A DNA stretch of 64,000 bases, from contig JAFTPT010000011.1 of the NCBI GenBank assembly GCA_017463155.1, positions 1 to 64,000 of the forward strand. The letters run 5' to 3'. The number at the start of each line of letters is the position of its first letter. The first letter of the stretch is position 1. The stretch is from Blautia sp. (GTDB lineage Bacteria > Bacillota > Clostridia > Lachnospirales > Lachnospiraceae). The notes below the pieces were generated by a model. That model had not been told where the DNA came from. It was given only the letters and a program-made list of their open reading frames with translations, and ran no database searches. Position numbers and translations under genes: made by a program. Positions 24,751-56,628 of the stretch are shown here, in pieces.

Positions 24751-25392
24751 TCATAGCGGATTTTTGTGTGTTTTGCCATTATTTTGTTTTGAATACACAC
24801 AGCCGCAGTAGTTCTGCCTGTACAGGTCATATTCCCTGGACAGCTCGATGGAACGCTTGTAGCCGTTTTTCTTTTTGAAATCCGAAGGAAGATGTTCGAC
24901 CTGGTAGATATCTCCCAGCTCCTGCCCGATCTCGTTGATCTTCGCGGCATTCTTAAGCGGACTGATGGAGAGCGTGGTCGTAAAGTAATCACATCCAAGC
25001 TCCCTTGCATAGCGGGCGGCCTCCTCCATCCGGAGCCGGTAGCAGCGGAAGCACCTCTCTCCTCCCTCCGGGACCAGCTCGAGTCCCCGGGCCATCTCGT
25101 AGAATCGTTCCGGCTCATAGGCCCCTTCCAGAAGGTTCACGGGGTGCTGGAATTCCATGGCGCCGATCAGCCTTTTCAGCTCCTCGACCCGTTTATGGTA
25201 TTCCTCCTCGGGCGAGATGTTCGGATTATAATAAAGGACCGTGATCGTAAAGTACCGGCTCAGATATTCCAGCACATAGCTGCTGCAGGGTGCGCAGCAG
25301 CTGTGCAGAAGAAGGTGCGGCACCCGGCCCGAAGACTCGAGCTCACTGATCAGCTTGTCCAGTTCTCTCTGATAATTAACAGGATTGGCCAA
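24751..25392 (-). CDS. queH: Epoxyqueuosine reductase QueH
   Basis: The 213-residue protein shows all QueH cysteine motifs: HSCCAPC (residues 30-36), CFRCYRLR near 113, and NYCGCVYS near 195. QueH performs the last step of queuosine synthesis in tRNA and replaces the cobalamin-dependent QueG, so it needs no B12. The start is probably the TTG at 25392: GGGGGAG lies four bases before it and no ATG is available before the conserved HSCC motif. It overlaps the psd stop by 17 bases, so the genes are translationally coupled. Confidence 0.92.
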   Translation of the reverse strand: MANPVNYQRELDKLISELESSGRVPHLLLHSCCAPCSSYVLEYLSRYFTITVLYYNPNISPEEEYHKRVEELKRLIGAMEFQHPVNLLEGAYEPERFYEMARGLELVPEGGERCFRCYRLRMEEAARYARELGCDYFTTTLSISPLKNAAKINEIGQELGDIYQVEHLPSDFKKKNGYKRSIELSREYDLYRQNYCGCVYSKQNNGKTHKNPL

Positions 25393-39290: not shown

Positions 39291-40097
39291 CTAGCCTCCG
39301 ATCACGCAGGTAAGGCCATGCTTTTCCACGACCGTTTTCAGCTCCCGCATTTTTTCGATGGTCGGTGTCGGGAGATCTCCCATCAGGTACGGCCGTCCGA
39401 GACCGACGTATTTGTCGTATCCCAGCCTGTGATAGGGAAGTATATGCATCTGCGTTACTCCCGGAAGGGACGCCGCAAAAGCCGCGATCGAGTCGATCTC
39501 CGCCGGCGTGTCATTGAAGGTCGGGATCACCGGCGTACGGACGATCAGTCGGCATTTCCCGGACGAGGCCACACGTCTTGCATTCTCCAGGATGGGCCTG
39601 TTGTCCTTTCCCGTGAATTGCTCGTGCTTGACCGGGTCGGTGTGCTTGATATCCATCAGGTACTGGTCCAGGTACGGCAGGACGCCCTCGATGGCAGAAT
39701 AATCAACGCGTGCCATACTCTCGATCGCCGTGGAAAAGCCCGCGTCCTTCGCCGCGTGCAGAAGATCCCGGGCAAAGGCCGGCTGCAGCAGGCATTCTCC
39801 CCCGGACAGCGTAAGTCCGCCCTTGGAGCGGCGGTAATAGATCCGGTCCTGCTCCACAACGCGCATGACCTCCTCCACCGTCGTATCCTCCCCGACCGTC
39901 TTTACCTTGCCGTCCGGCTCTTTCATCGTTTCGATCTCTCCGGACTGAGACTCCGGATTGCAGCACCAGCGGCACCGCATGGCACAGCCTTTTAAAAAGA
40001 CAATGGTACGGATCCCGATCCCGTCATGCACCGAATAACGCTGGATATCAAAGATCCTGCCTTTTGTTTTCAGATACGCAAAGGGTTCTGCTGTCAT
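39291..40097 (-). CDS. Glycyl radical enzyme activase (radical SAM)
   Basis: The 268-residue product has the radical-SAM motif CX3CX2C at C38, C42 and C45 (GCAMRCRWC), then TLSGGECLLQP for SAM binding near residue 97. It uses SAM to abstract hydrogen from the glycine of its partner, here the glycyl radical enzyme 21 bases upstream. It lacks the extra eight-cysteine ferredoxin insert that most dehydratase activases carry after the first motif, so in this respect it resembles the pyruvate formate-lyase activase. GGGGAG lies before the ATG. It is cotranscribed with the enzyme under the B12 riboswitch. Confidence 0.93.
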   Translation of the reverse strand: MTAEPFAYLKTKGRIFDIQRYSVHDGIGIRTIVFLKGCAMRCRWCCNPESQSGEIETMKEPDGKVKTVGEDTTVEEVMRVVEQDRIYYRRSKGGLTLSGGECLLQPAFARDLLHAAKDAGFSTAIESMARVDYSAIEGVLPYLDQYLMDIKHTDPVKHEQFTGKDNRPILENARRVASSGKCRLIVRTPVIPTFNDTPAEIDSIAAFAASLPGVTQMHILPYHRLGYDKYVGLGRPYLMGDLPTPTIEKMRELKTVVEKHGLTCVIGG

Positions 40098-40118: not shown

Positions 40119-42647
40119 TCAGAATTCATAGCCCTGCTCCGTACGGTTGATGATGTCATCCTGCAGCGACTTTGACAGGGTGGTAAACAGTGCGGAGTAA
40201 CCGGCTACCCTGACCACAAGATAAGGATATTTCTCCGGATGCGCCTGTGCATCCAGAAGCGTCTGCTTGTCGACGACGTTGAACTGCATGTGCATTCCCT
40301 TCTGGTCAAAGTAGGTACGGATCAGGGATTCAAAATCATTGAGGCCCTTCTCGCCCGCCAGTGCGGACGGATGGAACTTCTGATTCAGAAGTGTCCCGTT
40401 GGAAGCGATCATGTGGTCGATCCTTGCCACGGAGTTGGCTGTCGCGGTCGGACCCTTGCGGTCATGGCCTGCCATGGGACCGATCCCGTCCGCCACCGGC
40501 GTGTGGGCAAAACGGCCGTCCGGAGTTGCCCCCGTCTGCTCTCCGAGAGGAACATTCGCCGATACGGGATAAATGCCGGCATGGAACTGTCCGCCCCGCG
40601 GATTTTTGTACTTCTGGATCGGGCGTGTATACAAATAGGCGACCTCCCTGGCGAAATAATCCACCTCCGGGATGTCGTTTCCGTATTTCGGAACCTCCTC
40701 GATCATCTCAAGGAGCTCCTCGCAGTGTTTCCTGAGGTCTGCCGGGATCGACGACGTCTTCAGATCCGCCACGATTTTCTGGATCTCCTCCTCCGACACT
40801 TCTCTTCCGTTCTGCTTCATCGTATTTACGATGGTGAAGGTCATATCCTTGATGGACGCGTCATCCAGACCCTTTCCGAAGTTCAGGTCCAGTGCCTGCT
40901 TATATTCTTCCAGCGTAAGCTTCTTCTGCTCGTACACGAGCTGTTTTACGGCGTACAGAGAATCGGAGACATTGGCGATCCCGAAGCACTGCGGGCCGGT
41001 AAAATTGTAGATGGCGCCGCCCTGTTCCGTTGTCTTGCCGGCTTTGATACAGTCATCGACCATGCAGGAGAGCCAGGGAAGCGGCACCCGCTCGGCGTGC
41101 GCACAGTCAATGGCATTGTCCGCATTGACCAGCAGGCCGATCTGGTATTCCATCTGCTTTTTGTAGGCATTCCAGAAATCCTCGAAGGTCCGAAGCTCCG
41201 AAAGCTCTCCGGTGCGAAGTCCCACCTGGACGCCCTTGTCCATTCCATTGGAGAAAACCATCTCCAGGGGACGGCACATGTTGAAGAAAGCCGCGTCATG
41301 CCAGCCCATCATCTTGCCGGGTACATGCGGCTCCACGCAGCCGATAATGCTGTAGCAGCGGGCATCCTCCAGGCTGATCCCGCGGTTCATGAGCGCGGGA
41401 ATGATCACCTCATCGTTATAGTAGGCCGGCAGACCGATCCCGGTACGGGTAAGGCGGCAGGCTTCATGCATCAGGTCGTGCGGGGAAAGATTCCACACAC
41501 GGATGGAAAGGGACGGGGCCGGAAGTCCTACGTGATCCGAGGCCCAGATGCACATAAAGGAGAGATCGTTGGTCACGTCCTTTCCCTCGGCATTCTGGCC
41601 GCCGACGATCAGGTTCTGGAACAGGCTGTAGCCGGCAAAGCCCCTTGCGGAGGCCGCGTCCCGGCACTTGTTCAGGTCGTTCAGTTTGACGTAGATGCAG
41701 TCGATCAGCTCCTGCGCCTTGTCCCTGGTGATATTCCCGGCCTGCATGTCTTTCTCATAATACGGGAACATGTACTGGTCGAACCGTCCGGGCGAGATGG
41801 AATGACCGCTGGACTCCATCTGCAGAAGCTGCTGGATGAACCAGAAGCTCTGACAGGCTTCCCAGAAGCCGTTGGCGCCTCTTCGCGGGACATTGTGGCA
41901 GTTGCGGCTGATCGTAAGAAGTTCTTCCTTGCGGACCGGATCGGTTTCTTTTTCCGCCATGGAAGCTGCAAGTACGCTGTATCTTTCGGCGTAGCGGATC
42001 ACGCCCTCACAGGACAGGATCATTGCCGTCAGAAGACGCTCCTTTGTGCAGTAATCGGCATCACCGACATCCATACCGGAGAGCTCCCGGCGGATCTTCT
42101 CGATGATCCCTTCAAACCCGTATTCGAGGACCTCCCAGTATTTGACGCACACGTGCCCCACCCCGTTGTAGAAATAATTCCCCGGGGTAAAGACATTGTG
42201 GTCGATCGCGGTGAGGGTGGCTTTGCTCATATAGGAAGTAGCCAGCTCGCTGCTGGTGCGCCCGGCCCAGTAAGGATGGACCGACCGCAGAGCTTCTTTG
42301 GTCTCCTCGGAGATAAAGAACGGATCCGCTTCACGGTGTTCCACCGTCTCGAACTCGTCATCCAGCCATGTATAGGAAAACTCCGGATAGGTCTGGCACC
42401 CTCTCGGCGCGAGCGTGGAGCTTCCCACGATCAGTTCCTCCGGCCGGATCGTGATGGGAATATTGTCCAGAATATGCGCGAACGCAAGCGCTCTGCGCAT
42501 GACCATCGGCTGCCCTTCCGTCCCGAGGTAGGATTCGGTCAGGAGCAGCGCGCGGGAAGCTTCGATCTCGGGCATCTTTGCGTACAGGTGCTCGACAAGC
42601 CTCTGGATCCTTGGACTCTTCTCCGTGGGTGAAGCATTATAACTCAT
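40119..42647 (-). CDS. Glycyl radical enzyme, diol/glycerol dehydratase-like
   Basis: The 842-residue product has the two hallmark sites: thiyl C437 in IIGCVEP and the radical glycine G816 in RVAGYSA. The GCVEP loop with Glu two residues after Cys marks the eliminase/dehydratase group, not pyruvate formate-lyase. The Asp fourteen residues after the Cys (GWHDAAFFN), and the histidines in NGVGHV and SGHSISPGRF, correspond to the catalytic Asp and His residues of the B12-independent glycerol dehydratase as I remember them. Glycerol or 1,2-propanediol is thus the likely substrate; choline or hydroxyproline cannot be excluded without alignment. No microcompartment shell genes are present in the window. 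AAGGAGG precedes the ATG. Expression is under a cobalamin riboswitch. Confidence 0.9.
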   Translation of the reverse strand: MSYNASPTEKSPRIQRLVEHLYAKMPEIEASRALLLTESYLGTEGQPMVMRRALAFAHILDNIPITIRPEELIVGSSTLAPRGCQTYPEFSYTWLDDEFETVEHREADPFFISEETKEALRSVHPYWAGRTSSELATSYMSKATLTAIDHNVFTPGNYFYNGVGHVCVKYWEVLEYGFEGIIEKIRRELSGMDVGDADYCTKERLLTAMILSCEGVIRYAERYSVLAASMAEKETDPVRKEELLTISRNCHNVPRRGANGFWEACQSFWFIQQLLQMESSGHSISPGRFDQYMFPYYEKDMQAGNITRDKAQELIDCIYVKLNDLNKCRDAASARGFAGYSLFQNLIVGGQNAEGKDVTNDLSFMCIWASDHVGLPAPSLSIRVWNLSPHDLMHEACRLTRTGIGLPAYYNDEVIIPALMNRGISLEDARCYSIIGCVEPHVPGKMMGWHDAAFFNMCRPLEMVFSNGMDKGVQVGLRTGELSELRTFEDFWNAYKKQMEYQIGLLVNADNAIDCAHAERVPLPWLSCMVDDCIKAGKTTEQGGAIYNFTGPQCFGIANVSDSLYAVKQLVYEQKKLTLEEYKQALDLNFGKGLDDASIKDMTFTIVNTMKQNGREVSEEEIQKIVADLKTSSIPADLRKHCEELLEMIEEVPKYGNDIPEVDYFAREVAYLYTRPIQKYKNPRGGQFHAGIYPVSANVPLGEQTGATPDGRFAHTPVADGIGPMAGHDRKGPTATANSVARIDHMIASNGTLLNQKFHPSALAGEKGLNDFESLIRTYFDQKGMHMQFNVVDKQTLLDAQAHPEKYPYLVVRVAGYSALFTTLSKSLQDDIINRTEQGYEF

Positions 42648-42671
42648 GTGATATCCTCCTTGTTTATTTCC

Positions 42672-42710
42672 TTAACAAAGAAAGCTGAGGCATCAAAAAA
42701 ATGCCACAGC
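42672..42710 (-). terminator. Intrinsic terminator in the leader (riboswitch expression platform)
   Basis: GCTG-GGCAT pairs with ATGCC-CAGC around a T-rich loop, then TTTCTTTGTT. It sits between the cobalamin aptamer and the start codon of the glycyl radical enzyme, where a ligand-controlled terminator is expected. Confidence 0.75.
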
Positions 42711-42769
42711 CGTATTTCTGTGATTAAAATGAACAAGACCAGTGAACCGCTGTCTGTCCATGCCGGGCT

Positions 42770-42968
42770 CTCAGCAGGTCTCCTGACTGGTGCTTCCGGC
42801 AGATAAAGCTGCCGGGACCTGGTCCGGCCTTCTCGGCAGTAAAGCCAATGGCGGGCAAAAGCCCCGGACCGGTCCGAAACACTCACAGTGGCGGCACCGT
42901 TCATGATTCTCACATGATTCCCTATTATCCTGCGAGGCTGCATCCCCACAGGCACTGAGTAAGCCTTC
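42770..42968 (-). promoter_or_regulatory. Cobalamin riboswitch
   Basis: The minus strand shows the conserved core of the AdoCbl class: GTGCCTGTGG start, AGGGAATCATGTGAGAATCA, then GAACGGTGCCGCCACTGTGA, a variable stem, and the closing GTCAGGAGACCTGC (B12 box region). Order and spacing match known cobalamin riboswitches. It lies about 120 bases before the glycyl radical enzyme ATG, between a strong promoter and a terminator, so cobalamin should switch the operon off by early termination. The 103-codon frame through this stretch is an artefact. Confidence 0.93.
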
Positions 42969-42982
42969 TGTTTATCAATAAA

Positions 42983-43011
42983 ATCATACCATTCAGGAGT
43001 ATTTCTGTCAA
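42983..43011 (-). promoter_or_regulatory. Promoter of the riboswitch-controlled operon
   Basis: TTGACA (43006-43011), 17-base spacer ending in TGG, TATGAT (42983-42988). The aptamer begins about 15 bases downstream. Confidence 0.9.
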
Positions 43012-43131: not shown

Positions 43132-43932
43132 TTACAGTCTGTCTTTGATCCTGCCGAAATCGATCTCACACTTTCCGCCCGAGATGGCGATGGGGATCCT
43201 TTCGGTGAACGGATAACTCTTCGGCGTCAGCGATTCGTCCGAAAAATCATAGACCTGGACACGCTCTTCCTTCGGATCAATGATCCAGTATTCACGAACG
43301 CCTGCGTTCTTATATTTGTAGGTCTTGAGAAGCATGTCCTTGGCCCTGGTGGAATCCGAGAGGATCTCCACCGTCAGATCCGGGGCGCCTGAGAAGCACC
43401 TTTTTGTCCGGTCAAATTCCGTGCAGACCACAAACAGATCCGGTTGGACCATGGTCTTGTCATCATTATCAAGCTGCACATCGCAGGGCGAAAGAAACAC
43501 CCGGCAGTCCTTTCCGTGCGCGTCCGCACAGGCACGGAACTGCAGATGCAGCTCACCAAGGATCGTCTGGTGAGTGAGCGAAGGTGCCGCCATGTCAAAG
43601 ATCTCCCCGTCGATCAGCTCCACCCTTCTCTCATCCGGAATGGCGTAGTAATCCTCCAGGGTATATTCACCCCGGCGCTTTTTACCATACGCAGGGGCAG
43701 CCTCCTGCACCCGGCCGGGCTGTGAAAGGCTGCCATTGGAATAATACATGCCGGATCGTTCTTCTTTACGCAGTACCCGCTCGAGAGCCTGCAGGGTCCG
43801 CTGCCGTGGAGAATCCGTTGCGCCTGAAAAGATCTTCTGTACCGTACTGAAAGGCACACCGGAAAGCTTTGCCAATGCTTCATTGGACAGTCCAAGTTCC
43901 TTTTTCCTGTCCCTCATCTCCTGAATGGTCAT
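43132..43932 (-). CDS. HTH - Uma2 family (DUF820) nuclease-like protein
   Basis: The 266-residue product has an N-terminal XRE-type helix-turn-helix (residues 1-57: LSNEALAKLSGVPFSTVQKI) fused to a Uma2/DUF820 domain (about 88-260) of the PD-(D/E)XK superfamily. Visible active-site pieces are GEIF, VQPDLFVVC and PDLTVEILS, with a lysine-bearing KYKNAGVREYWIID after it. Uma2 proteins are numerous in cyanobacteria and Firmicutes and their function is unproven, though a nuclease fold is established. Its own promoter carries an inverted repeat that may be bound by the HTH part. AAAGGAG lies seven bases before the ATG. Confidence 0.88.
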   Translation of the reverse strand: MTIQEMRDRKKELGLSNEALAKLSGVPFSTVQKIFSGATDSPRQRTLQALERVLRKEERSGMYYSNGSLSQPGRVQEAAPAYGKKRRGEYTLEDYYAIPDERRVELIDGEIFDMAAPSLTHQTILGELHLQFRACADAHGKDCRVFLSPCDVQLDNDDKTMVQPDLFVVCTEFDRTKRCFSGAPDLTVEILSDSTRAKDMLLKTYKYKNAGVREYWIIDPKEERVQVYDFSDESLTPKSYPFTERIPIAISGGKCEIDFGRIKDRL

Positions 43933-44226: not shown

Positions 44227-47200
44227 TCATTTCTGCTTCTTCCTGAGCGTCAGCCCGGTGACCATGATGGCCGCCATGGACAAAAGCAGGAGCATCAGCC
44301 ACTGGAACGGCTGGCTGTCGTCGCCGGTCCTGGCGGCACCTGCGTCCGCATCGTCCGAGAGCGACGAACCAGAACCTCTTCCTGTGCTGCCGCTATTGTC
44401 GTCGTCCGAACCCGAATCATCCGAGGAGTCCGTAGTCACCCGGAACTCTGCCTCCGCGGATCCGTCCGTAAAGAGTGCCTTGATCGTATGTTTCCCTTTC
44501 GACAATGTCTTCAGGTAGGACGGCTTCAGGCTGATCTTAACACTGCCGGCCTCTGCATCATAGTCGTCCGCAGAAACTTCGTCTCCGTCGATCTCAATAC
44601 CGGTAAACAAGGAGAACGTCTGGCTGTCATCCTCGTTTCGTTTAACGACAAAGTCAAGCGTTGCCGTACTGCCCTTCTTCCACTTGCCGCCGTCACCGGA
44701 CACAAATGTGTAGGTGATTTCCTCCGGCTCCTCGGTCGGCGTCGGCGTGACCGTATCCTCCGGTGCTTCTGTCGGTGTCGGTGTGACGGTATCCTCCGGT
44801 GCTTCTGTCGGTGTCGGTGTGACGGTATCCTCCGGTGCTTCCGTCGGGGTCGGGGTGACCGTATCTACCGGTTTATCCGTCGGGGTCGGGGTGACCGTAT
44901 CTACCGGTTTATCCGTCGGTGTCGGGGTGACCGTATCCTCCGGTGCTTCTGTCGGTGTCGGCGTAACGGTATCCTCCGGTGCTTCTGTCGGTGTCGGCGT
45001 GACGGTATCCTCCGGTTTCTCCGTCGGTGTCGGCGTAACGGTATCCTCCGGTGCTTCCGTCGGCGTCGGTGTGACCGTATCTTCCGGTGCTTCTGTCGGT
45101 GTCGGCGTAACGGTATCTTCCGGTCTCTCCGTCGGGGTCGGGGTGACGATATCCTCCGGTTTCTGCGTCGGCTCCGGCTTCTCCGTCGGGGTCGGGGTGA
45201 CGGTATCCTCCGGTTTCTGTGTCGGTTCAGGCGCTTCCGTCGGCGTCGGTGTCGGCTTCGCCGTGATGGTCAGGTCTGCACCGGTGTAGGCGATGGTATA
45301 ATTCGCCCCGGCATCCAGCGTTCCCTGCAGGATCGCGTATCTGCCTGCAGCCTCGCCTGATTCACGGGCAAGGGCTCCACTGAGCGTATCTCCTTCGACC
45401 AGGTTCTCTGCCGTGTAGGTCAGCGCCGGATCGACATTCCCCTCAGTCTTGGTCTTCGGGTCCGCCGTGACCGTAACCGTACGCTTGTTGATCGTCAGGT
45501 CGGCGCCTTCGTACATGATCGTGTAATTCTTTCCGGCGTCCAGGGTACCCTGCAGGATCGCATAGCTGCCCACGTTCTCGCCGGCTTCGCGGTCCAGTGC
45601 TCCGGTCAGTGTATCGTCGTACTCAAGGCCTTCAACCGTATAGGTCAGTTCAGGATCCTTGTCCCCGTAGGTCTTCTCTTTTTCATCAGCCGTGACCGAC
45701 AGTTCCTTCGGTTCGATGACGATCTCCTTGCTGCCGGATACGAACATGCCGTCGTCCAGCATAACATAATAGTAGAACGTGTATGTGCCTGCGTCCTTAC
45801 CGCCATAGCTGTCCCCGCTGTGGGCGGCGGCATACTCTTTGACCTCCTGCAGTGTGTCAAGCTTTTCATCCGCAAAGATGATCTCCGGGTTGCCTTTGGT
45901 CACTTCGACTTCGATACCATGCTCGACGCCGTCGTAAGCCCCGCTGTACCCGTGGGCTGTGAATTCCACGTCTTCATGGACCGTATATTTTCCATTCACG
46001 GTCGTGATGTCGTAGTTCGCGTTCGGCGCGCAGGAAACCTCGATCGGGTAGACCTTCGGCAAAGTGTCCTCCGATGTGCCAAGCTGCAGCTGTACCTGCA
46101 GGCCGGCACGGTCTTTTTCGACCAGGTCTCCGCTGATCTCGTAGTCCAGCGAGGAGGCATCCGTGATGTCCGGTCCCATGCCGTCATTCGCGGTGATGGT
46201 GATCTTTGCGGGCTTAATGGTCAGCGTGCCGTTCTCCTTTTTGACATTGGTGAAGCAGGCTGTCACATCCTTGCCCGCGGCGTTTTTGATCACATAGCCG
46301 TCGCTTACCACGTTCTCCGCCTGTCCGGCATTGGTAATGCTCCCGGCTGCGGCTGCACTGACGGTAAAGCCCTCCGGAAGGCCGCTTGCCGTCACAGTGC
46401 TTTCGGACAGCGGCGTGCCGTCGTATGTCTTCTGCGCGGAAGCCGCCGTCAGGACGATCTCCGCGTCGTTTTTCGTCACGGTCAGTGTGCCGAGGTCTTC
46501 CTTCGTAACCTTGTAGTTGGAGGCTTTCGCAGTGCCCCAGGTGAGCTCATAGGTATTGTCACTGCTCCCCACCTCGGTCCGGCTTCCGTTCGCTTTCACA
46601 TCGGCGGTCTCGCTCTTCACAAGGCCGTTGATCTTTGCGCCGTCCGTCTTCACAAGCGCTGTGCCGTCATAAGGCTTGGACGCGCTCGCGGTCGTGACGG
46701 TCAGTTCCTTCGGAGCGATCGTGAACGCATGGGTGGTCACGCTCTTGTCCTCCGGCAGCGCATAGTTGCCGGCTTTTTCACCGGTCAGGCTTTCTGCCTT
46801 GACCGTGTATCCTTCGCCTGCGGCGACCTCGGCGCCGGTCACCGTGACTTCGACCGCATCACTGTTCACAAGGCCCGTAACGACAGCCTTGGGTGCCTGG
46901 CTCTCTCCGTTGTAGGTAAACGCATCGCCCGTCCAGGTAAGGCCGACCGTACGCTTTTTGATCGTCAGGTCCGCACCGGTATAGACAATGGTGTAATTCT
47001 TTCCTGCGTCCAGGTTGCCCTGCAGAACAGCGTAGCTGCCCACATTCTCGCCCGCTTCACGGGTCAGAGCGCCGGTCAGCGTGTCGCCGTCCTCCAGCCC
47101 TTCGGATTTGTACGTCAGCTCCGGATCCGTATCCCCGTAGGTCTTCTTCTTCGCGTCCGCCGTGACCGTCACGATCTTCGGCGTGATGACGATGTCCTTG

Positions 47201-50200
47201 CTGCCGCTGAAGAACTCAGCATCTGTAACGACGTAGTAGTACACCGTCGTCGTGCCCACATCCGTGCGGGAATGGTCCTCATCCGGATGAGCCTTCAGGT
47301 ATGTCTCCAGTTCCTCCCTGGTGTTCAGCTTTTCGTTCGCGAAGAAGATATCAAAGCCCTCGGTGTCCTGGGTCTCCACGTCGATACTGTGCGGTACGCC
47401 GTCATACACGCCGCTGTAGCCGTGCGCCGTGAAGCCCCCGTTCAGGGAGACCGTATATTTTCCGTCGACGGTCGATATCTCGTAGTTGTCATCCGGCGTA
47501 TAGATGACCTCGACCGGATAGGTCTTGAGTGTCCCGCCCGCCGGCGTTCCAAGGACCAGCCTGATCCCGAGAGCATCCTTGTCGGCTTCGACGATGCCGC
47601 CGCTGATCTCATAGCCCAGCGAGGAGGCGTCCGTGATGTCCGGGCCCATGCCGTCATTCGCAGTGATGGTGATCGCGGCCGGAACGATCGTCAGTGTGCC
47701 GTTCTCCTTCCGCACATTGGTAAAGGAGCTCGTCACATCTTCGCCCGCGGCGTCTGTGATCACCGGATCACCGGCCACGTTGTCCGCCTGTCCGGCATTG
47801 GTCAGGCTGCCGGCAGCGCGTACGCTGATGGCAAACCCGTCGGGCAGTCCGGTAACGGTGACGCTGTCATCGGACAGCGGTGTCCCGTCGTAGGTCTTCT
47901 GTACGGAGGCTGCGGTCAGGACGATCTCCGTGTCGTTAGCCGTGACAGTCAGCGTCCCCAGGTTCTCCTTCGTGATCTTGTAGTTGGAAGCCTTTGCGCT
48001 GTCCCAGGTGATCTCGTACGTGTTGTCGCTGCTTCCAACCGCGGTCCGGCTGCCGGTGGCGGTCACAGTCGCTGTCTCGCCCTCAACCAGGCCTTCGATG
48101 GAGGCGCCATCCGTCTTTACAAGCGCCGTACCGTCGTAGGCTTTGGAGGCGCTCGCGGTCGTGACGGTCAGCTCCTTCGGTGCAATGCTGAAGGAATGGG
48201 TCAGTACGCTGCCATCCTCCGGAAGCGCATAATTGTATGCTTTGTCGCCGGTCAGGCTTCCGGCCGTGGCCGTGTAGCCTTCACCTGCGTCGACCTCGGC
48301 GCCGTTCACCGTGACTTCAACTGCATCCTCATTCACAAGCCCCGTAACGGCGGCTGACGGTATCCGGCTCTTCCCGTTGTAGGTGAACGTGTCATCCGTC
48401 CATTCCAGTCCGACCGTTCGCTTATCAATGGTCAGATCCGCACCTTTGTATGTGATCGTGTAGTTATTTCCACCGTCCAGGGTGCCCTTAAGGATCGCGT
48501 AGCTGCCCACGTTTTCACCCGCTTCACGGGTCAGGGAGCCGGTCAGTGCGTCGTCGTACTCAAGGCCCTCTACGGTGTAAGTCAGCTCCGGATCTGCAGC
48601 CCCGTAGGTCTTCTCCTTCGCTTCCGCGGTCACGGTCACGTTCTTCGGGGTGATGACGATGTCCTTGCTGCCGCTTAAGAATTCATCCTCTGTCACGACA
48701 TAATAGTACACCGTGGTCGTGCCCACATCCGTGCGGGAATGGTCCTCATCCGGATGGGCTTTCAGGTATGCATCCAGCTCCTCTTTGGAGTTCAGCTGTT
48801 CGTTTGCAAAGAGTATATCAAAGCCCTCGGTGTCATGCGTCTCCACATCGATGCTGTGCGGTACGCCGTCATACACTCCGCTGTAACCATGGGCCGTAAA
48901 GCCGCCGTTCAGGGAGACCGTATACTTTCCGTCGACGGTCGATACCTCGTAGTTGTCATCCGGCGTATAGACGACCTCGACCGGATAGGTCTTGAGCGTC
49001 CCGCCCGTCGGCGTTCCAAGGGTCAGCCGGATGCCGAGCCCTTCCCTGTCGGCTTCGACGATGCCGCCGCTGATCTCGTAATCCAGCGAGGAAGCGTCCG
49101 TGATGTCCGGTCCCATGCCGTCATGGGCGGTGATGGTGATCTTTGCCGGATCGATCGTCAGTGTGCCGTTCTCCTTCGTGATATTGGTAAAGAAGGTGGT
49201 CACGACCTCGCCCCGGGCATTTTTGATCACGTATCCGTCATTAACGACGTTCTCCGCCTCTCCGGCGTTCGTGATCGTCCCGACGGCACTGGCACTGATG
49301 CTAAAGCCCTCCGGAAGTCCGCTCACGCTCACGCTGTCATCGGACAGCGGTTCTCCGTCATAGGTCTTCTGCGCGGAAGCCGCGGTCAGGATGATCGCGG
49401 TATCATTCCCGGTAACCGTCAGCGTTCCTGTGGTTTCTTTTGTGATCGTGTAGTTGGACTCCTTCGCGCTTTCCCAGTCGATCGTATAGGTGTTGTCGCT
49501 GCTTCCTACCGGAGTCTGGCTTCCGGTGCAGACAATGGATGCCTTCTCGCCGTTCGCCAGGCCTTCGATGGAGGCCCCGTCGGTCTTGACAAGCGCCGTG
49601 CCGTCATAGGGTTTGGAAGCGCTTCCGGTCGTGACGGTCAGCTCCTTCGGCGCGATGGTGAGTGTACCGGGCACCAGATCCGTAACCATGTAACGGCCGC
49701 TGGTATCGATGGTCTCACCCGGCGTCACGCCGGCAAAGGTAACGTCATAGTCTCCTGCGTCGATCCCGCTTCCTCTCGCGCTTACGTCCTTGAACGAAGC
49801 TTCAACAGCTGTGCCGTCAGGGAGTCCTGCGGTATACCCTTCCGCCGTCTGTGTTTTTCCGGTATAGATACCATCCGCCGTAGTGGCCGTCAATGTCACA
49901 TGCAGGTACCACTGGGCATACAGGGTCGTGTCCTCTTCAAATGCGGCCGAAGCCTTGTCATCGTAGGCCGTACCGCTTCCATCGGCCTTTGTGTTCCATC
50001 CCTTGAAGGAAGCATCCTCCCGGGTGAATGTGTTGGCACGAAGCACTCTCTGCTCACTAATGGGCAGGACCTGCTTTTCCATGGAACCTGTGCCGCCGTT
50101 TGCCTCGAAGGTGACAGTGACTCCCTTGACCAGGCGGGCCTCTCCCTGGTCGTTTTCGCTCACCGCATAGGCGGTATCATCGCTCGTGAAGTTTTCCTCC

Positions 50201-53200
50201 GAGCCATTGCCGGGAAGACCGTCGGTGAACACGCCGGGCTCCTGCATGGAAATGCCGATGGGATCACTGTTTGCCAGCGCATCGTCCACGGTGATGAGCG
50301 TGTCTTTTTCCAGGTAGACGTTGCTGTCCCCCTTGTCATCCATGTTGTCCGTAATGACAGAATTGCCGGAAAGCTTGAACGTGTTGCCCGATTCTATATA
50401 GACTCCTCCGCCTCCGGCATCCTCCTCAAGCTTGTCAGGATTAATGATGCGATTGCCGGTGATGCGGCCGCCGCTCATGGTAAAATCGCCGTCGCACTCT
50501 ACACCGCCGCCCACATCGTTGGCGGTATTCCCGGAAATTTCACCGTCTTCCATGGTGAAACTCGACTCGGTGTAAACACCGCCTCCTCCGACGCTGGCTT
50601 TGTTGCCGGAGATCACACCGCCCGTCATAATGAACTGACTATCTCCATAGGAAGCCACTCCACCGCCTCTTTCATCAGAGATATTATCACTGATGCTTCC
50701 GCTGTTCATGGTAAAGCTGCTCTCATCACCGATAATCACGCCGCCGCCATCTACATCGGCGGTATTTCCGCTAATGCGGCTGTTCGTCATAACAAGCGAA
50801 CCGGATCCCTTGATGCTCACGCCGCCGCCATACCAGTCCGCATAGTTGCCGCTGATCTCGGCGTTCGTAAGTGTAACGTCGGCCTCGCTGTATACACCGC
50901 CGCCCTCTCTCTCAGCTTCATTCTCACTGATGGTGCCGGTTTCCATGGTAAAGCCGTCTTCGCAATAAACGCCGCCGCCGTATCCGGCTGTATTCCCGCT
51001 GATGACGCCGCCTTTCATGGACTCGCTGGTGGTACCTGCTTCCATTGTGAATTCGCCCTCGTTGAACACGCCGCCGCCATATGCATAATGGCGACCTGTT
51101 GCATCCGTAGCGGAATTATCAGTAATGCTGCCACCCTTCATGACAAACACGCCGTCATATGAAACAAACACGCCACCGCCGCTGCAGCCGGGTTTGGTAT
51201 ACGGTTCAGCCTTCTCGAACAAGGCATTGTTTTCTGTGATGCTGCCGCCATTCATAATGAATTCGCCAACATCAACAAATACGCCTCCGCCATACGCTGC
51301 CTGATTTTTACTGATGATAGCGCCTGTTTCCATCGTGAAGGCAGACTTATCATCGATGATATACACACCGCCGCCACAATAGTCGGAGGTGTTGCTGCTG
51401 ATGCTGCCGCCGGTCATGGTGAAGCTGCCTTCCAGAATCGACACACCACCGCCGTCACCACCAGACTTGTTATCCGTGATACTGCCGCCGGTCATGGTGA
51501 AGGTACTCGCATCCTTTTCCATGTACACGCCGCCGCCTCGGTCCCCGGCTGTATTGCCGGTGATACTTCCGCCGTTCAGGATCAGCGAGGCTCCGTCCAT
51601 GATGATGCCGCCGCCGTCTTCGAGATTATACCCTCCGGTGATCATGCCGGTCTTTTCAGCAGAAGAATCCTCCACGGTCAGGCTGCCCTTGACGGTGATA
51701 ACATTGCCGTCCTCCTGTGCCTCGGTAAGGCCACGGTCAAGCGTATAACCCGCCATATCAAGAGTGATGCTCTTGCCCTCGGGGATCAAAAGCGCAACAT
51801 CGTCCTCTTCCGCCGTCACAGTGTCGGTCAGCGTGATGGTCGCGCCGCTTTCGGCCTCATCGATCTCTTTCTGCAGGAGTGCCCAGGGGGAGAGCCACTT
51901 CGCCTTCAGGGTGGTGTCAGACATCATGGGACCGTCAAAGTTGTACGTTCTGCCGTTCAGCTGCCACTCCTTGAAGCCGTAGCGTTCCCTGGTGGGATCC
52001 TCCGGCCGGACAGGCACCGCGCCCTTGATGAGCTTCTGCGGCTCCACCTCGCTGCCGCCGTTGCTGTCGAAGGTGACCGTAACGGCTGTATCCAGATAGG
52101 CCTCGTTCGCTTTGATGCCCACTGTGTAGCGTTCGTCGTCGCTGGTGAAGTTATCCGCCGTGCCTTTTCCGGAGAGTCCTGTGGTGAACACGCCGGTCTG
52201 CGACGCCATGGTCACGCCGACACTTGCGGTATCATCCAGTTTGCCGGCAATCCTGATCTCTGCATCGGATTCCAGCTTGACGTTTTCGGTTTTGCCATTG
52301 GCCGTATTGTCCTGAATGACGGGACTGCCGGACAGGTTGAAGGTGCCGAATTCATCACACAGCACTCCGCCGCCGTAGGTCGCTTCGTTTCCGCTGATGG
52401 TACCGCCGCTCATGGTGAATGTCGCGCCGAAACCGATCTGCACGCCGCCTCCGTAGGTGCCCTTGTTGCCGGAGATCGTGCCGCCGTCCAGGGTGAACGT
52501 ACCTTCCACAAATATACCGCCGCCTGTGCCGGTATTGCTTCCGCCCGTGATGACACCGCCGCCCACGGAATCGGTGACAGTCAGACCGCCGTTGACGGTG
52601 ATGACGTTGCCTTCCTCCTCTGCCTCGTCGAGGTTACGGTTCAAGGTGCAGCCGGCCAGGTCGATCGTAATACTCTTGCCATCGGGGATCGTGAGAACAA
52701 CATCATCATCCCGCGCCGTCACATTGCCGGTCAGCGTGATGATCGCGCCGTCCTCGGCCTCGTCAATTTCTTTCTGCAGATCGACCCACTCATTGCTCCA
52801 ATGCGCCACCAGTGTGATATCCCTGGTGATCGGGGTATTTTCAAAATCAAAGTCCTCGCCATCAAGCCGCCAGCCCAGGAACTCCCTTCCCTCCATAGTG
52901 GGTGCGGGAACGGGGACCATGGCGTGCGCGCCTTTCAGCGCATGCTGGTTGGAAACCTTGCTGCCTCCGTAGGAATCAAAGGTGATGGCATACTCCGGGC
53001 GCTCCCAACGGGCCGTGACGGTCGTATTCCCCTCGACGGTGATGGTCTCCAGCGGCTGCTTCAGGTGATCCTGATCCAGGCCTACCTGCCAGCCGACAAA
53101 ATCATGCCATTCCGGTTCGGTGAATTTGCAGGGCGGCAGGGGGTATTTTTCTCCCACGCCTGCCTCGCCGGGCTCCATTTCGCCGGTACCATCGCCCGGA

Positions 53201-56200
53201 TCAAAGGTGATCACATAAGGTGCTTTCCACTGGGCGACAGCGGTCACGTCCGCATCGATGGTAACGGGCTCCGCCTCCTGATAGGTCTTCTCACCGATCT
53301 TCCAGCCACTGAAGATCCTGCCATCCGGGCCGGTAAAGAGGCACTCGGGCAGCGCCATTGCCCTTCCTTTCGCGATAAACCTGTCTTCCATGGCACCCGT
53401 GCCGCCGTTCGCGTCAAAGGTAATGCGGTTTCCGTCCTCCTGATAACCACAGACCATGCACACGCCTGCATCGTCAAAATCGTGCGCTTCGCCTGCGAAC
53501 ACCTGGTTGCAGTATGCGCAGGGCGCACGCAGGTGCCACGTTTTCGTGATCTCGGTAAAGCGAATGGTCTTAAGCTCGCTGTCCTTGACCGGCTCCCACG
53601 GATGATCGCACTCCCCGTCGATGCGGGCATAGTGTCGGTACTGGCAGGCCGACTCCCGTCCTTCCGCGGTAAACGGGTCGTTTTTGAGGGCTTCCTCTTC
53701 ACTCCAGCCGGCATGCACCCACATGCCGTTCTTAAATTTGATATGCCCGTATTCTTTGTCGTTATCACCATGGCCAATGGCGCTGCTTTTGCCTCCGCCG
53801 GACTGGGCGATCACAACGCCTCCGTTGATCTGTACCTCGTCGCAGCCCTCGCCGCCGCCGCCCCAAAATCCCTCCGCGCCGCCGCCGATACCCGCCGCCT
53901 TGGGACCGCCTTTGGCGATGACGGTACCGCCGTTGATGATGACATGGGTAGTCGTGCCACTACAGCTATAATTACCGCCGATACCTGCGCCGCCACAGCC
54001 GTCCTTTCCGCCACCTGTCGCCTTGAGCATGCCGCCGTTGATGGTCAATGTTCCGTTGGCGGCGAGACAGATACCAGCGCCGCCGTTGTCCTTATGGCTG
54101 CTATTGGATGTATGCGTACCTCCTTGCGCGGTGACATCGCCTCCATTGATGGTCAATCTTTTGCTTTGAATGCCGGGATATTCATGGTTCGCGCAGGTTG
54201 ATATCACTTCGCCGCCATTGATCGTGACTTCCGTGACGTATATACCCGCTATTGCGCCAAGAGCATTGACCGTCCCCTCTCCATCGATGGTGAGCTTTAT
54301 ACCGTTGATGCCGGCACCTGAACGCCCTGTGAGTCTGATCAGACTCTCCTTTTTCTTCCCCCCGTCGATGGTCACTTTATTCGTGCTGCTTATGCCATAA
54401 GTATATCCTACGACTGTCACTTGACTGGATGTGATCTTCACCGTATCAACCTGAATCCCACATTGTTTCGTACTTGTGACATTCACCACGGCGTTCTCGA
54501 TCGTAAGAGAGACACTACCTTCACTATAATAGCCAAGGCCGATGCCCGTATCTCCGCCTGTCACCGTGACATCGCCGCCGGTGATCTTGATGATCAACTC
54601 CCCGCTGTACGTACAATGACTTCCACCGCCGATGCCCGCTCCCCCATATATTCTTCCTGCTCCACCGGTCACCGTAACCGTACCGCCGGTAATCTCGATC
54701 GGGCCCATCGATGTGGTTTTTTCTGTTCCACCGATTCCCGCAGCACGACAAGAACCCAAAGCTTCCACCACTCCGCCGTTGATCGTAATGCCGGTATAGC
54801 CGGGTCCATTTTTACCAGCGCCGATGCCCGCGCTGCCCGGGTGATCAATATATCTACGCGCCTTGGCCGTGATATTGCCGCCGTTGATGGTGATGGCTCC
54901 GGCAAACTTGTCATCCTTTCCGCCAATGGCCGCGTAATCGTAGCTGCTGGTTATATCTGCCACCAGCTTGCCCATATCCTTGCCTGTACTCTGGGCCCAT
55001 ATGGTCAGCGAGGCGTCCTGCTTGACGTAGATGCCCAGGTTGGGCCTTAAGGTCTTGCCGTCGCACAGGATCAGGTTGACGTTTCCGGAAACCTCCATGT
55101 TTTCGGAGAAGGACACGTCCTCTGTGACCGCGTACCAGCCATTGTCCAGATTCTTCTCCGTGACCGGTCTGCAGTCCACGGGGCCTTTCGCGTTACCCTT
55201 CGCGTCCACATAGCTGATGGATACGGTCTGGCCGGCGCCCACGGCCGCCAGCGTCACATTGTACAGAGAAAAGCTGTCGGTCAGCGCCGTGACCGTGTCG
55301 CCGGATTCGCTCACGATGTCCAGTGTCTCGGCGGTCATGCCGCCGTCGTCTTCATGGATGTGGTACACACTGGCTTCGATGCCTTCCTCTGCCGCTTCGG
55401 CAAGTGCGAAGGAAACCTGGACGTCAAAGCCCTCGGCGGGCTGCAGCTCGCTGCCCTCCGGGTCCAGCATACTGATGTCAAAGGTGTAGGAAGCGATCAC
55501 ATCCTGTTCATCGCTTTTTGTCTCGTCGCTGTCCTGCCCGTCCTGTTCTTCCCGGACGTCCGCCACTGCCTCGTCCACAGCGCCTGCCGTCTCGGCGGAG
55601 ACCTTTTTTACGGACAGCTCCGCGTCCTCGGGGAACGCGCCCGCCTCGTAGCGCACCGTAACGGTCACGCCGCCCACGGTCGCGGATTGTTCGAGAACCG
55701 CGGCCTCCGAAGGATCTGCTCCGGCGAGGGAGACGATCTCCTCCGGTGCTTCGGCCGTCTCCGGCATATAGATCACAGTCATAAGGTCATACACCGTCAG
55801 CGAAGACAAAGTAAACGCCGCCTGATCCTTCTGAACATCGATATCGGCAGGGATGATCTCCACGTCTTCCAGCTCGCTGTCCCACCTGTACAGACAGGAG
55901 GAGATCTCCGAATCCGGATACTCTTCCTGAAGTTCGGACAGCCCTGCTTCCTCGATCAGCACATTCGCGGAACCGTTCATCTCCGCGCCGGAAAAGCTGT
56001 ACAGACTATGCTGAACGATCGTCTGCTCTGCGGGAACAATGCCTTCCGCAGCTTCCACCTTCTGCGCGATCTCCTCGTCAAAGACCTTTTGGATGACCAG
56101 GACGGTCCCCGGAGCAAAAACACCCGCGTCCGCCGTGACGCTGAACTGCACGTCTTCAATCCGTACCGTCTGTTCGAACGGCACCGGTTCTTCATCTGCG

Positions 56201-56532
56201 TCTGGCTCCGCTTCCGACGTGAGTCCATCCGAAAGAAGCTCTTCTTCGCCCCATGCCTGAACATCCGCCGCGTTATCATCCGCCTCCGGCTCCGCGGGCA
56301 GGTCATACTGCACCTCATCGCCCGTCAGATCACCGTTTGCCGGGACGGTCTCTTCGTTCCGGAATGGCGCCTCTTCGTCCGTCAGGACAGCTCCTTCCGT
56401 ATCGATTTCCTCCGCGTCGGCCGCTGCGGATGAATAGCTTTCCGCATAAGCTGTAAGTCCGGGATTGCTGACCGCAAGCAGTCCACTCAGCATCATGGCC
56501 GGGATACGTCTTATCAACATCTCTTTCGTCAT
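44227..56532 (-). CDS. Giant repeat-built surface protein (about 4101 aa)
   Basis: The ATG at 56532 follows AAAGGGGAA and opens a signal peptide (MTKEMLIRRIPAMMLSGLLA to LTAYA); the longer frame to 56610 is leader. Parts in order: acidic linker; the N-terminal module shared with the other adhesins (about 120-500); a parallel beta-helix rich in INGG and AGIGGG (about 510-940); Listeria-Bacteroides (Flg_new) repeats with ITFDANGGTG (about 1030-1245 and again later); a second long beta-helix of GGGVYxEx...FTMxGGxISGN turns (about 1290-2080); three MBG-type modules with YDGTALVKTDG and HGYSGVYDGV (about 2210-3750); a Pro-Thr stalk (about 3750-3940); a small beta domain; and a C-terminal ARTGDDS, helix and RKKQK. 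That last motif is an atypical sortase signal, not LPXTG. It is a wall-anchored fibre, presumably adhesive. Monocistronic. Confidence 0.9.
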   Translation of the reverse strand: MTKEMLIRRIPAMMLSGLLAVSNPGLTAYAESYSSAAADAEEIDTEGAVLTDEEAPFRNEETVPANGDLTGDEVQYDLPAEPEADDNAADVQAWGEEELLSDGLTSEAEPDADEEPVPFEQTVRIEDVQFSVTADAGVFAPGTVLVIQKVFDEEIAQKVEAAEGIVPAEQTIVQHSLYSFSGAEMNGSANVLIEEAGLSELQEEYPDSEISSCLYRWDSELEDVEIIPADIDVQKDQAAFTLSSLTVYDLMTVIYMPETAEAPEEIVSLAGADPSEAAVLEQSATVGGVTVTVRYEAGAFPEDAELSVKKVSAETAGAVDEAVADVREEQDGQDSDETKSDEQDVIASYTFDISMLDPEGSELQPAEGFDVQVSFALAEAAEEGIEASVYHIHEDDGGMTAETLDIVSESGDTVTALTDSFSLYNVTLAAVGAGQTVSISYVDAKGNAKGPVDCRPVTEKNLDNGWYAVTEDVSFSENMEVSGNVNLILCDGKTLRPNLGIYVKQDASLTIWAQSTGKDMGKLVADITSSYDYAAIGGKDDKFAGAITINGGNITAKARRYIDHPGSAGIGAGKNGPGYTGITINGGVVEALGSCRAAGIGGTEKTTSMGPIEITGGTVTVTGGAGRIYGGAGIGGGSHCTYSGELIIKITGGDVTVTGGDTGIGLGYYSEGSVSLTIENAVVNVTSTKQCGIQVDTVKITSSQVTVVGYTYGISSTNKVTIDGGKKKESLIRLTGRSGAGINGIKLTIDGEGTVNALGAIAGIYVTEVTINGGEVISTCANHEYPGIQSKRLTINGGDVTAQGGTHTSNSSHKDNGGAGICLAANGTLTINGGMLKATGGGKDGCGGAGIGGNYSCSGTTTHVIINGGTVIAKGGPKAAGIGGGAEGFWGGGGEGCDEVQINGGVVIAQSGGGKSSAIGHGDNDKEYGHIKFKNGMWVHAGWSEEEALKNDPFTAEGRESACQYRHYARIDGECDHPWEPVKDSELKTIRFTEITKTWHLRAPCAYCNQVFAGEAHDFDDAGVCMVCGYQEDGNRITFDANGGTGAMEDRFIAKGRAMALPECLFTGPDGRIFSGWKIGEKTYQEAEPVTIDADVTAVAQWKAPYVITFDPGDGTGEMEPGEAGVGEKYPLPPCKFTEPEWHDFVGWQVGLDQDHLKQPLETITVEGNTTVTARWERPEYAITFDSYGGSKVSNQHALKGAHAMVPVPAPTMEGREFLGWRLDGEDFDFENTPITRDITLVAHWSNEWVDLQKEIDEAEDGAIITLTGNVTARDDDVVLTIPDGKSITIDLAGCTLNRNLDEAEEEGNVITVNGGLTVTDSVGGGVITGGSNTGTGGGIFVEGTFTLDGGTISGNKGTYGGGVQIGFGATFTMSGGTISGNEATYGGGVLCDEFGTFNLSGSPVIQDNTANGKTENVKLESDAEIRIAGKLDDTASVGVTMASQTGVFTTGLSGKGTADNFTSDDERYTVGIKANEAYLDTAVTVTFDSNGGSEVEPQKLIKGAVPVRPEDPTRERYGFKEWQLNGRTYNFDGPMMSDTTLKAKWLSPWALLQKEIDEAESGATITLTDTVTAEEDDVALLIPEGKSITLDMAGYTLDRGLTEAQEDGNVITVKGSLTVEDSSAEKTGMITGGYNLEDGGGIIMDGASLILNGGSITGNTAGDRGGGVYMEKDASTFTMTGGSITDNKSGGDGGGVSILEGSFTMTGGSISSNTSDYCGGGVYIIDDKSAFTMETGAIISKNQAAYGGGVFVDVGEFIMNGGSITENNALFEKAEPYTKPGCSGGGVFVSYDGVFVMKGGSITDNSATDATGRHYAYGGGVFNEGEFTMEAGTTSESMKGGVISGNTAGYGGGVYCEDGFTMETGTISENEAEREGGGVYSEADVTLTNAEISGNYADWYGGGVSIKGSGSLVMTNSRISGNTADVDGGGVIIGDESSFTMNSGSISDNISDERGGGVASYGDSQFIMTGGVISGNKASVGGGGVYTESSFTMEDGEISGNTANDVGGGVECDGDFTMSGGRITGNRIINPDKLEEDAGGGGVYIESGNTFKLSGNSVITDNMDDKGDSNVYLEKDTLITVDDALANSDPIGISMQEPGVFTDGLPGNGSEENFTSDDTAYAVSENDQGEARLVKGVTVTFEANGGTGSMEKQVLPISEQRVLRANTFTREDASFKGWNTKADGSGTAYDDKASAAFEEDTTLYAQWYLHVTLTATTADGIYTGKTQTAEGYTAGLPDGTAVEASFKDVSARGSGIDAGDYDVTFAGVTPGETIDTSGRYMVTDLVPGTLTIAPKELTVTTGSASKPYDGTALVKTDGASIEGLANGEKASIVCTGSQTPVGSSDNTYTIDWESAKESNYTITKETTGTLTVTGNDTAIILTAASAQKTYDGEPLSDDSVSVSGLPEGFSISASAVGTITNAGEAENVVNDGYVIKNARGEVVTTFFTNITKENGTLTIDPAKITITAHDGMGPDITDASSLDYEISGGIVEADREGLGIRLTLGTPTGGTLKTYPVEVVYTPDDNYEVSTVDGKYTVSLNGGFTAHGYSGVYDGVPHSIDVETHDTEGFDILFANEQLNSKEELDAYLKAHPDEDHSRTDVGTTTVYYYVVTEDEFLSGSKDIVITPKNVTVTAEAKEKTYGAADPELTYTVEGLEYDDALTGSLTREAGENVGSYAILKGTLDGGNNYTITYKGADLTIDKRTVGLEWTDDTFTYNGKSRIPSAAVTGLVNEDAVEVTVNGAEVDAGEGYTATAGSLTGDKAYNYALPEDGSVLTHSFSIAPKELTVTTASASKAYDGTALVKTDGASIEGLVEGETATVTATGSRTAVGSSDNTYEITWDSAKASNYKITKENLGTLTVTANDTEIVLTAASVQKTYDGTPLSDDSVTVTGLPDGFAISVRAAGSLTNAGQADNVAGDPVITDAAGEDVTSSFTNVRKENGTLTIVPAAITITANDGMGPDITDASSLGYEISGGIVEADKDALGIRLVLGTPAGGTLKTYPVEVIYTPDDNYEISTVDGKYTVSLNGGFTAHGYSGVYDGVPHSIDVETQDTEGFDIFFANEKLNTREELETYLKAHPDEDHSRTDVGTTTVYYYVVTDAEFFSGSKDIVITPKIVTVTADAKKKTYGDTDPELTYKSEGLEDGDTLTGALTREAGENVGSYAVLQGNLDAGKNYTIVYTGADLTIKKRTVGLTWTGDAFTYNGESQAPKAVVTGLVNSDAVEVTVTGAEVAAGEGYTVKAESLTGEKAGNYALPEDKSVTTHAFTIAPKELTVTTASASKPYDGTALVKTDGAKINGLVKSETADVKANGSRTEVGSSDNTYELTWGTAKASNYKVTKEDLGTLTVTKNDAEIVLTAASAQKTYDGTPLSESTVTASGLPEGFTVSAAAAGSITNAGQAENVVSDGYVIKNAAGKDVTACFTNVKKENGTLTIKPAKITITANDGMGPDITDASSLDYEISGDLVEKDRAGLQVQLQLGTSEDTLPKVYPIEVSCAPNANYDITTVNGKYTVHEDVEFTAHGYSGAYDGVEHGIEVEVTKGNPEIIFADEKLDTLQEVKEYAAAHSGDSYGGKDAGTYTFYYYVMLDDGMFVSGSKEIVIEPKELSVTADEKEKTYGDKDPELTYTVEGLEYDDTLTGALDREAGENVGSYAILQGTLDAGKNYTIMYEGADLTINKRTVTVTADPKTKTEGNVDPALTYTAENLVEGDTLSGALARESGEAAGRYAILQGTLDAGANYTIAYTGADLTITAKPTPTPTEAPEPTQKPEDTVTPTPTEKPEPTQKPEDIVTPTPTERPEDTVTPTPTEAPEDTVTPTPTEAPEDTVTPTPTEKPEDTVTPTPTEAPEDTVTPTPTEAPEDTVTPTPTDKPVDTVTPTPTDKPVDTVTPTPTEAPEDTVTPTPTEAPEDTVTPTPTEAPEDTVTPTPTEEPEEITYTFVSGDGGKWKKGSTATLDFVVKRNEDDSQTFSLFTGIEIDGDEVSADDYDAEAGSVKISLKPSYLKTLSKGKHTIKALFTDGSAEAEFRVTTDSSDDSGSDDDNSGSTGRGSGSSLSDDADAGAARTGDDSQPFQWLMLLLLSMAAIMVTGLTLRKKQK
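44714..45262 (-). repeat. 36-bp tandem repeats coding a Pro-Thr-Glu stalk
   Basis: Eleven or so 36-bp units encode APEDTVTPTPTE and variants (KPEDTVTPTPTE, KPVDTVTPTPTD), preceded by two longer EPTQKPEDTVTPTPTE units. Such stalks span the peptidoglycan. Copy number is likely to vary between strains and may be wrong in a short-read assembly. Confidence 0.9.
45270..49665 (-). repeat. Three tandem MBG-type modules of about 1.47 kb
   Basis: Long blocks such as KAHPDEDHSRTDVGTTTVYY, ITANDGMGPDITDASSL and HGYSGVYDGVPHSIDVET recur three times (the third more diverged). DNA identity is high, so gene conversion or copy-number change by recombination is likely. The encoded modules are immunoglobulin-like stalk domains. 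Confidence 0.85.
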
Positions 56533-56628
56533 CTCAAATTCCCCTTTTTGTCTATAGATTTCAAGCAAAAAACCATATAAAATGATCACTTCAGCACTAA
56601 AAAAGGGCACAAAATCCCTAGTGTGGAT

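Follow-up and report, generated by a model that had tools for sequence, protein, structure and literature searches.

A cobalamin riboswitch lies directly upstream of a gene for a putative B12-independent, glycyl radical 1,2-propanediol dehydratase (GRE) in the window analysed here, the whole 64,000-nucleotide stretch of Blautia sp. DNA, and the B12-dependent counterpart of that enzyme is encoded on another contig of the same genome. The best reading of this arrangement, to which we assign a probability of roughly 75%, is that propanediol fermentation switches between two isozymes depending on B12. Binding of adenosylcobalamin or a related corrinoid to the leader would favour early termination, so that the GRE and its activase would mainly be made when B12 is scarce, while PduCDE would take over in the presence of B12. 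Either enzyme would convert 1,2-propanediol, derived from fucose or rhamnose, to propanal.

The glycyl radical dehydratase and its leader

The dehydratase gene (40119..42647, minus strand) encodes 842 residues and contains the PFL-like (PF02901) and Gly_radical (PF01228) domains. Its top phmmer match among solved structures is the diol dehydratase 5i2a/5i2g (1316.9 bits, residues 2-839), which we take to be the B12-independent diol dehydratase of Roseburia inulinivorans, followed by 9rco, a glycyl radical protein, with 970 and 1r8w, a B12-independent glycerol dehydratase, with 967.7. The protein scores above the cut-off of the subfamily model TIGR01774 (777.8 against 678.2), the only model to be passed; none of the NCBIfam equivalogs for different GRE activities reached its cut-off. 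Residues H165, S283, C437, E439, D451, and G816, presumably the GRE catalytic set (the glycyl radical together with Cys, Glu, Asp, and His), are all present and align with those of 5i2a and 1r8w. A radical SAM GRE activase of 268 residues (39291..40097, minus strand) follows on the same strand after 21 nt and is recognized by TIGR02494 (279 against a cut-off of 174.35) and PF04055. The first-pass annotation had named the pair a glycyl radical dehydratase and its activase, and these matches bear it out. The activase is shorter than the GRE activase models and is matched in two stretches, as if a ferredoxin-like insert were missing.

From this homology we infer that the substrate is 1,2-propanediol. 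The R. inulinivorans propanediol dehydratase (5I2A/5I2G; PduC2/PduD2) is a close homologue that likewise comes with an activase, and the available part of PMC9403272 describes it as confirmed on 1,2-propanediol; the Blautia gene differs from this system in that it lies outside a BMC locus and behind a riboswitch. Were the substrate a different one, such as glycerol, the two dehydratases would not be isozymes and the B12 control would have some other reason. The location outside the BMC locus and the catalytic residues held in common with 1r8w would both suit this alternative; however, the solved relative 5i2a outscores 1r8w by a wide gap, and the relatives' GRE genes sit in propanediol-type BMC loci beside an aldolase and PduCDE, and we therefore regard it as unlikely.

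All elements of the leader are on the minus strand. The sigma-70-type promoter TTGACA-17-TATGAT that the first-pass annotation had reported is real, reading from 43011 to 42983 with 11 of 12 consensus matches, and the equivalent position in G355, a relative of the same genus, holds TTGACA-17-TACAAT. A promoter scan of 501 bases found two promoter-like sites against a shuffle mean of 0.7. From the position of the promoter, transcription is expected to start at about the beginning of the aptamer. The aptamer itself (42756..42974) matches RF00174 over the full length of the model (1-189) and scores 83.9 bits where the gathering threshold is 31.5, in agreement with the cobalamin core recognized in the first-pass annotation and with the Rfam check proposed there, and it is the sole gathering-level Rfam match in the window. 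It shares 85.1% identity over 208 columns with its counterpart in G355.

Between the aptamer and the GRE start codon lie 108 nt. A possible P13/L13 hairpin, CAGCGGTTCACTG (42740..42752), is the same in the source genome and G355 while its flanks differ; inspection of the source leader by eye identified no L5-L13 kissing complement. Next is a terminator-like hairpin, T1 (42704..42723), with six pairs, three of them GC, followed by CAT7. T1 is kept in G355, and the form common to both leaders is UCACAG..CUGUGG followed by CAU6-7. A second hairpin, T2 (about 42684..42710; -14.1 kcal/mol alone), overlaps T1 and, from the fold probabilities, is mutually exclusive with it; its common form is GGCUGUGGCAU..AUGCC, and its G355 counterpart is an 11-pair stem followed by T7. 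The intrinsic terminator of the first-pass annotation thus corresponds to the 6-bp stem at 42723-42704 with its CAT7, but it is a modest terminator, overlapped by the longer T2. A Shine-Dalgarno sequence, AAGGAGG (42655..42661), ends 7 nt before the start codon.

Just upstream of the promoter, the window encodes a protein that joins a helix-turn-helix domain to a Uma2 nuclease-like domain (43132-43932, minus strand). Beyond it lies a 4127-aa ORF (44227-56610, minus strand) that looks like a secreted surface protein rich in repeats and has a proline-threonine repeat close to its C-terminus.

The probable sign of the proposed switch

We consider it most likely that B12 turns the GRE off, because the prior from the riboswitch class is strong. 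In the available text of PMC10653944, A. halodurans cobT is the first activating corrinoid riboswitch and the other known corrinoid riboswitches repress. In PMC9600662, as far as its text was available, 38 of the 86 reporters tested were repressed, and a terminator is predicted in 37 of the 38 responding elements.

The fold of the leader is compatible with either hairpin. T1 forms with a probability of 0.97 in the shorter transcript and T2 with 0.99 in the longer one, and forcing P1 and P13 hardly changes these values (0.99 and 1.00, respectively), so that thermodynamics alone shows no switching. The alignment of the source and G355 leaders holds 0 compensatory pairs of 90, and both T1 and T2 are terminator-like in G355. 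With the opposite sign, corrinoid binding would form T1 and thereby block T2, the real terminator, and the GRE would be made when B12 is present. T2 is indeed the stronger hairpin, with its 11 pairs and T7 in G355, and T1 uses the 5' arm of T2; in the consensus fold, moreover, CUGUGA of the aptamer pairs with UCACAG of T1 over 6 bp, and cobT provides the one known precedent for activation. Against this stand the repression seen in the rest of the class, the uninterrupted T7 that follows T1 in the source leader, and the lack of an evident use for a B12-free enzyme under plentiful B12. On balance we judge activation by B12 to be quite unlikely, and repression remains the preferred sign.

The B12-dependent counterpart and other cobalamin riboswitches

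The source genome (3.07 Mb in 55 contigs, 92% complete) contains one match to PF02286, the B12-dependent diol dehydratase PduC, at C20:14352-16004. By Pfam, its neighbours include the medium and small subunits (PF02288 and PF02287), a reactivase pair, and proteins with BMC shell domains, so the B12-dependent counterpart that the first-pass annotation had suggested searching for, as pduCDE, does exist in this genome. An aldehyde dehydrogenase and a phosphate propanoyltransferase (PduL) of the same operon exceed their NCBIfam cut-offs; EutS-, EutP-, aldolase-, RnfC-, DeoR-, and iron-ADH-like proteins fall below the curated cut-offs. The operon encodes a putative class II aldolase, and its gene order equals that of the relatives' hybrid loci minus the GRE and the activase.

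The promoter of this BMC operon (3460-3488, 11 of 12 matches) lies just before EutS. Upstream of it is a AAACAACA motif that also occurs near the GRE promoters of several relatives and that, as a guess, could be an operator. A cobalamin riboswitch is present on the same contig (C20:1650-1836), where it precedes a Cys-rich small protein (PF04071) and is separated from the BMC operon by an opposite-strand ORF (2452-3183). The scan found no plus-strand terminator on C20 between 2447 and the operon promoter.

The genome has ten RF00174 matches in total. B12-related genes named by Pfam follow two others, a Peripla_BP_2 protein behind R9 and a CbiK-domain protein behind R2. Parts of oligopeptide/nickel-type transporters are next downstream of R4 and R6 (PF00528), R10 (SBP_bac_5), and R1 (by eye), and the next downstream ORFs of R3 and R7 are secreted proteins for which no Pfam match was obtained. 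In four of the ten cases (contigs C2, C19, C34, and C16; loci L016, L018, L020, and L022) the riboswitch thus precedes genes of an oligopeptide/nickel-type ABC transporter, which perhaps serves cobalt or corrinoids. A cobalamin riboswitch is followed by a gene (L017:7434-8645, minus strand) for a protein with a CbiK (cobalt chelatase) domain and a signal-like N-terminus, and a similar-looking protein start is found behind the second riboswitch of G355.

The first-pass annotation had also pointed to QueH as another B12-sparing choice. The gene is real (24751-25392, minus strand; PF02677, 242.3 bits; NCBIfam gave no family), but it bears little on the proposed B12 switch.

Riboswitch-dehydratase linkage among relatives and known systems

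Direct linkage of a cobalamin riboswitch to this dehydratase is rare. A GRE match at 1e-100 was obtained in 81 of 299 sampled genomes of the family, and 59 of these have this GRE type, defined as at least 53% identity; PduC is present in 13 of the 59, and a riboswitch directly upstream of the GRE in one, the source genome itself, under a riboswitch search with stricter filters that lose weak matches. Within the genus, this GRE type occurs in 40 of 64 genomes, 37 of them with some RF00174 match and 22 with PduC. Although in 21 of the 40 a riboswitch on the same strand precedes the GRE by no more than 12 kb, the distance is at most 200 nt in only two, and these are the directly linked source genome (108 nt) and G355 (99 nt). 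Among named loci, where the best 80 of 579 were examined with a profile built from 24 riboswitches, one has a direct, same-strand riboswitch before the GRE and four have a riboswitch 1.7-4.5 kb away; three of the 80 have less than 300 nt of upstream DNA. The directly linked locus, L133 (JAJGAH010000144.1, 'Eubacterium sp. UW_Xyl_LCO2'), has a gap of 163 nt between its riboswitch (RF00174, 115.9 bits in Rfam) and the GRE, and this gap holds a 15-pair terminator unlike the source and G355 hairpins. A scan of the L133 leader found no promoter-like site. Its genome carries PduC at a contig end. Chance neighbourhood was considered as an explanation and rejected: when the 101 PF02901 rows of the 40 genus genomes, pieces and weak rows included, were compared by eye, the riboswitch was directly upstream on the same strand for the source genome and G355 only.

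Hybrid loci also occur in the genus. GRE and PduC are on one contig and strand, 13.4-14.6 kb apart, in 14 of the 40 genomes. In seven genus loci mapped with tblastn, the GRE and activase are followed by genes for the aldolase, the aldehyde dehydrogenase, shell proteins, and further BMC components, and five of the fetched stretches include PduC. We also weighed read-through, by which the nearest riboswitch of a hybrid BMC locus would control the GRE as well, and do not favour it: in the three hybrid loci scanned for promoters and terminators (G322, G333, and G337), a 12/12 promoter stands before the GRE. A terminator follows the Cys-rich gene in G322 and G337, and the scan found none there in G333. 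A GRE and a B12-dependent propanediol dehydratase also share one microcompartment-type locus in L112, L113, L128, L118, and L129, and in L085, L086, and L087. In L112, a Clostridiales-1 RNA (RF01699, 61.7 bits; 2659-2864, plus strand) separates the GRE from its promoter.

In a midpoint-rooted GRE tree of 41 chosen rows, the source genome falls in a clade with 100/100 support together with G355, G356, G316, G319, G345, G346, G350, G351, L133, and L134. PduC is present in all three linked genomes (source, G355, and L133) and in one of seven unlinked clade members (G351, but not G345, G346, G350, G316, G356, or L134). G319 (37 nt upstream) was left out of this count and G315 (a partial gene) is absent from the tree; both are without PduC. 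The association has a one-sided Fisher value of 0.033, which ignores kinship (G346 and G350 are near-copies) and comes from a set of 10 relatives whose genomes are mostly incomplete (66-94% for those with a stated value). This result fits the isozyme hypothesis but falls short of proof. Because all three directly linked genomes carry PduC, the isozyme-switch interpretation of the first-pass annotation gains support from these sequence comparisons. G351 has PduC and lacks the linkage. The linkage label requires three changes on the tree, and the L133 aptamer is only 58.3% identical to the source aptamer and 60.1% to its nearest, R2; this dissimilarity suggests that the GRE possibly acquired a riboswitch more than once.

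The aptamer could instead be a remnant, or serve a short attenuated RNA only, with GRE expression independent of B12. G356, the sister of the source in the GRE tree (93% GRE identity), has no riboswitch at its GRE, so the linkage is not essential to the gene, and Listeria cobalamin riboswitches act via RNAs and not on a downstream ORF (available text of PMC7377500). Yet the source and G355, which differ elsewhere in their upstream DNA, keep the aptamer, both hairpins, and their spacing at 85% identity, the layout of L133 is alike, and the scan found no second minus-strand promoter between aptamer and GRE. We hold this explanation to be very improbable and retain the isozyme switch.

That cobalamin riboswitches can precede genes of B12-independent isozymes is established (accessible parts of PMC3766115, PMC2211319, and PMC9600662). 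A close parallel is the metE riboswitch, for example in Priestia megaterium (metE/metH; PMC9600662, in part), where a corrinoid riboswitch likewise stands before a B12-independent enzyme with a B12-dependent counterpart in the genome. MetE is a biosynthetic enzyme, whereas the gene here encodes a fermentative glycyl radical dehydratase with its activase, and the sign is inferred from the riboswitch class. The Listeria cobalamin riboswitches Rli39 and Rli55 (pdu and eut) also tie B12 to diol or ethanolamine catabolism, and through their RNAs the B12-dependent pathway runs when B12 is present (PMC6873790 and PMC7377500, in part); the source riboswitch differs in having the B12-independent enzyme directly downstream. 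Both dehydratase types are described in the available text of PMC6620236, and that of PMC9403272 lists PduCDE and PduC2 together in 28 Clostridiales genomes; riboswitches have 0 occurrences in that paper. A GRE dehydratase is nowhere placed under a cobalamin riboswitch in the available portions of PMC6461909, PMC6873790, PMC8149966, PMC6620236, PMC3766115, PMC9600662, PMC2211319, PMC3543383, PMC12016505, PMC7377500, PMC11170127, PMC10653944, PMC2667541, PMC7689651, or PMC9403272, although an earlier listing of this target elsewhere is possible.

It seems reasonably probable that two radical chemistries, glycyl and adenosylcobalamin, are swapped by B12 supply for a single catabolic step in this organism, and that the GRE and activase left a hybrid GRE and PduCDE BMC locus and came under riboswitch control in the source lineage. 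Among the main products of gut and rumen communities, in which B12 is contested, is propionate formed from fucose and rhamnose. If the proposal holds, one cell would use either of two unrelated radical enzymes for this step, depending on its B12 supply. This would also offer a rationale for the retention of both enzymes by some Lachnospiraceae, a co-occurrence that the available text of PMC9403272 gives without a regulatory explanation.
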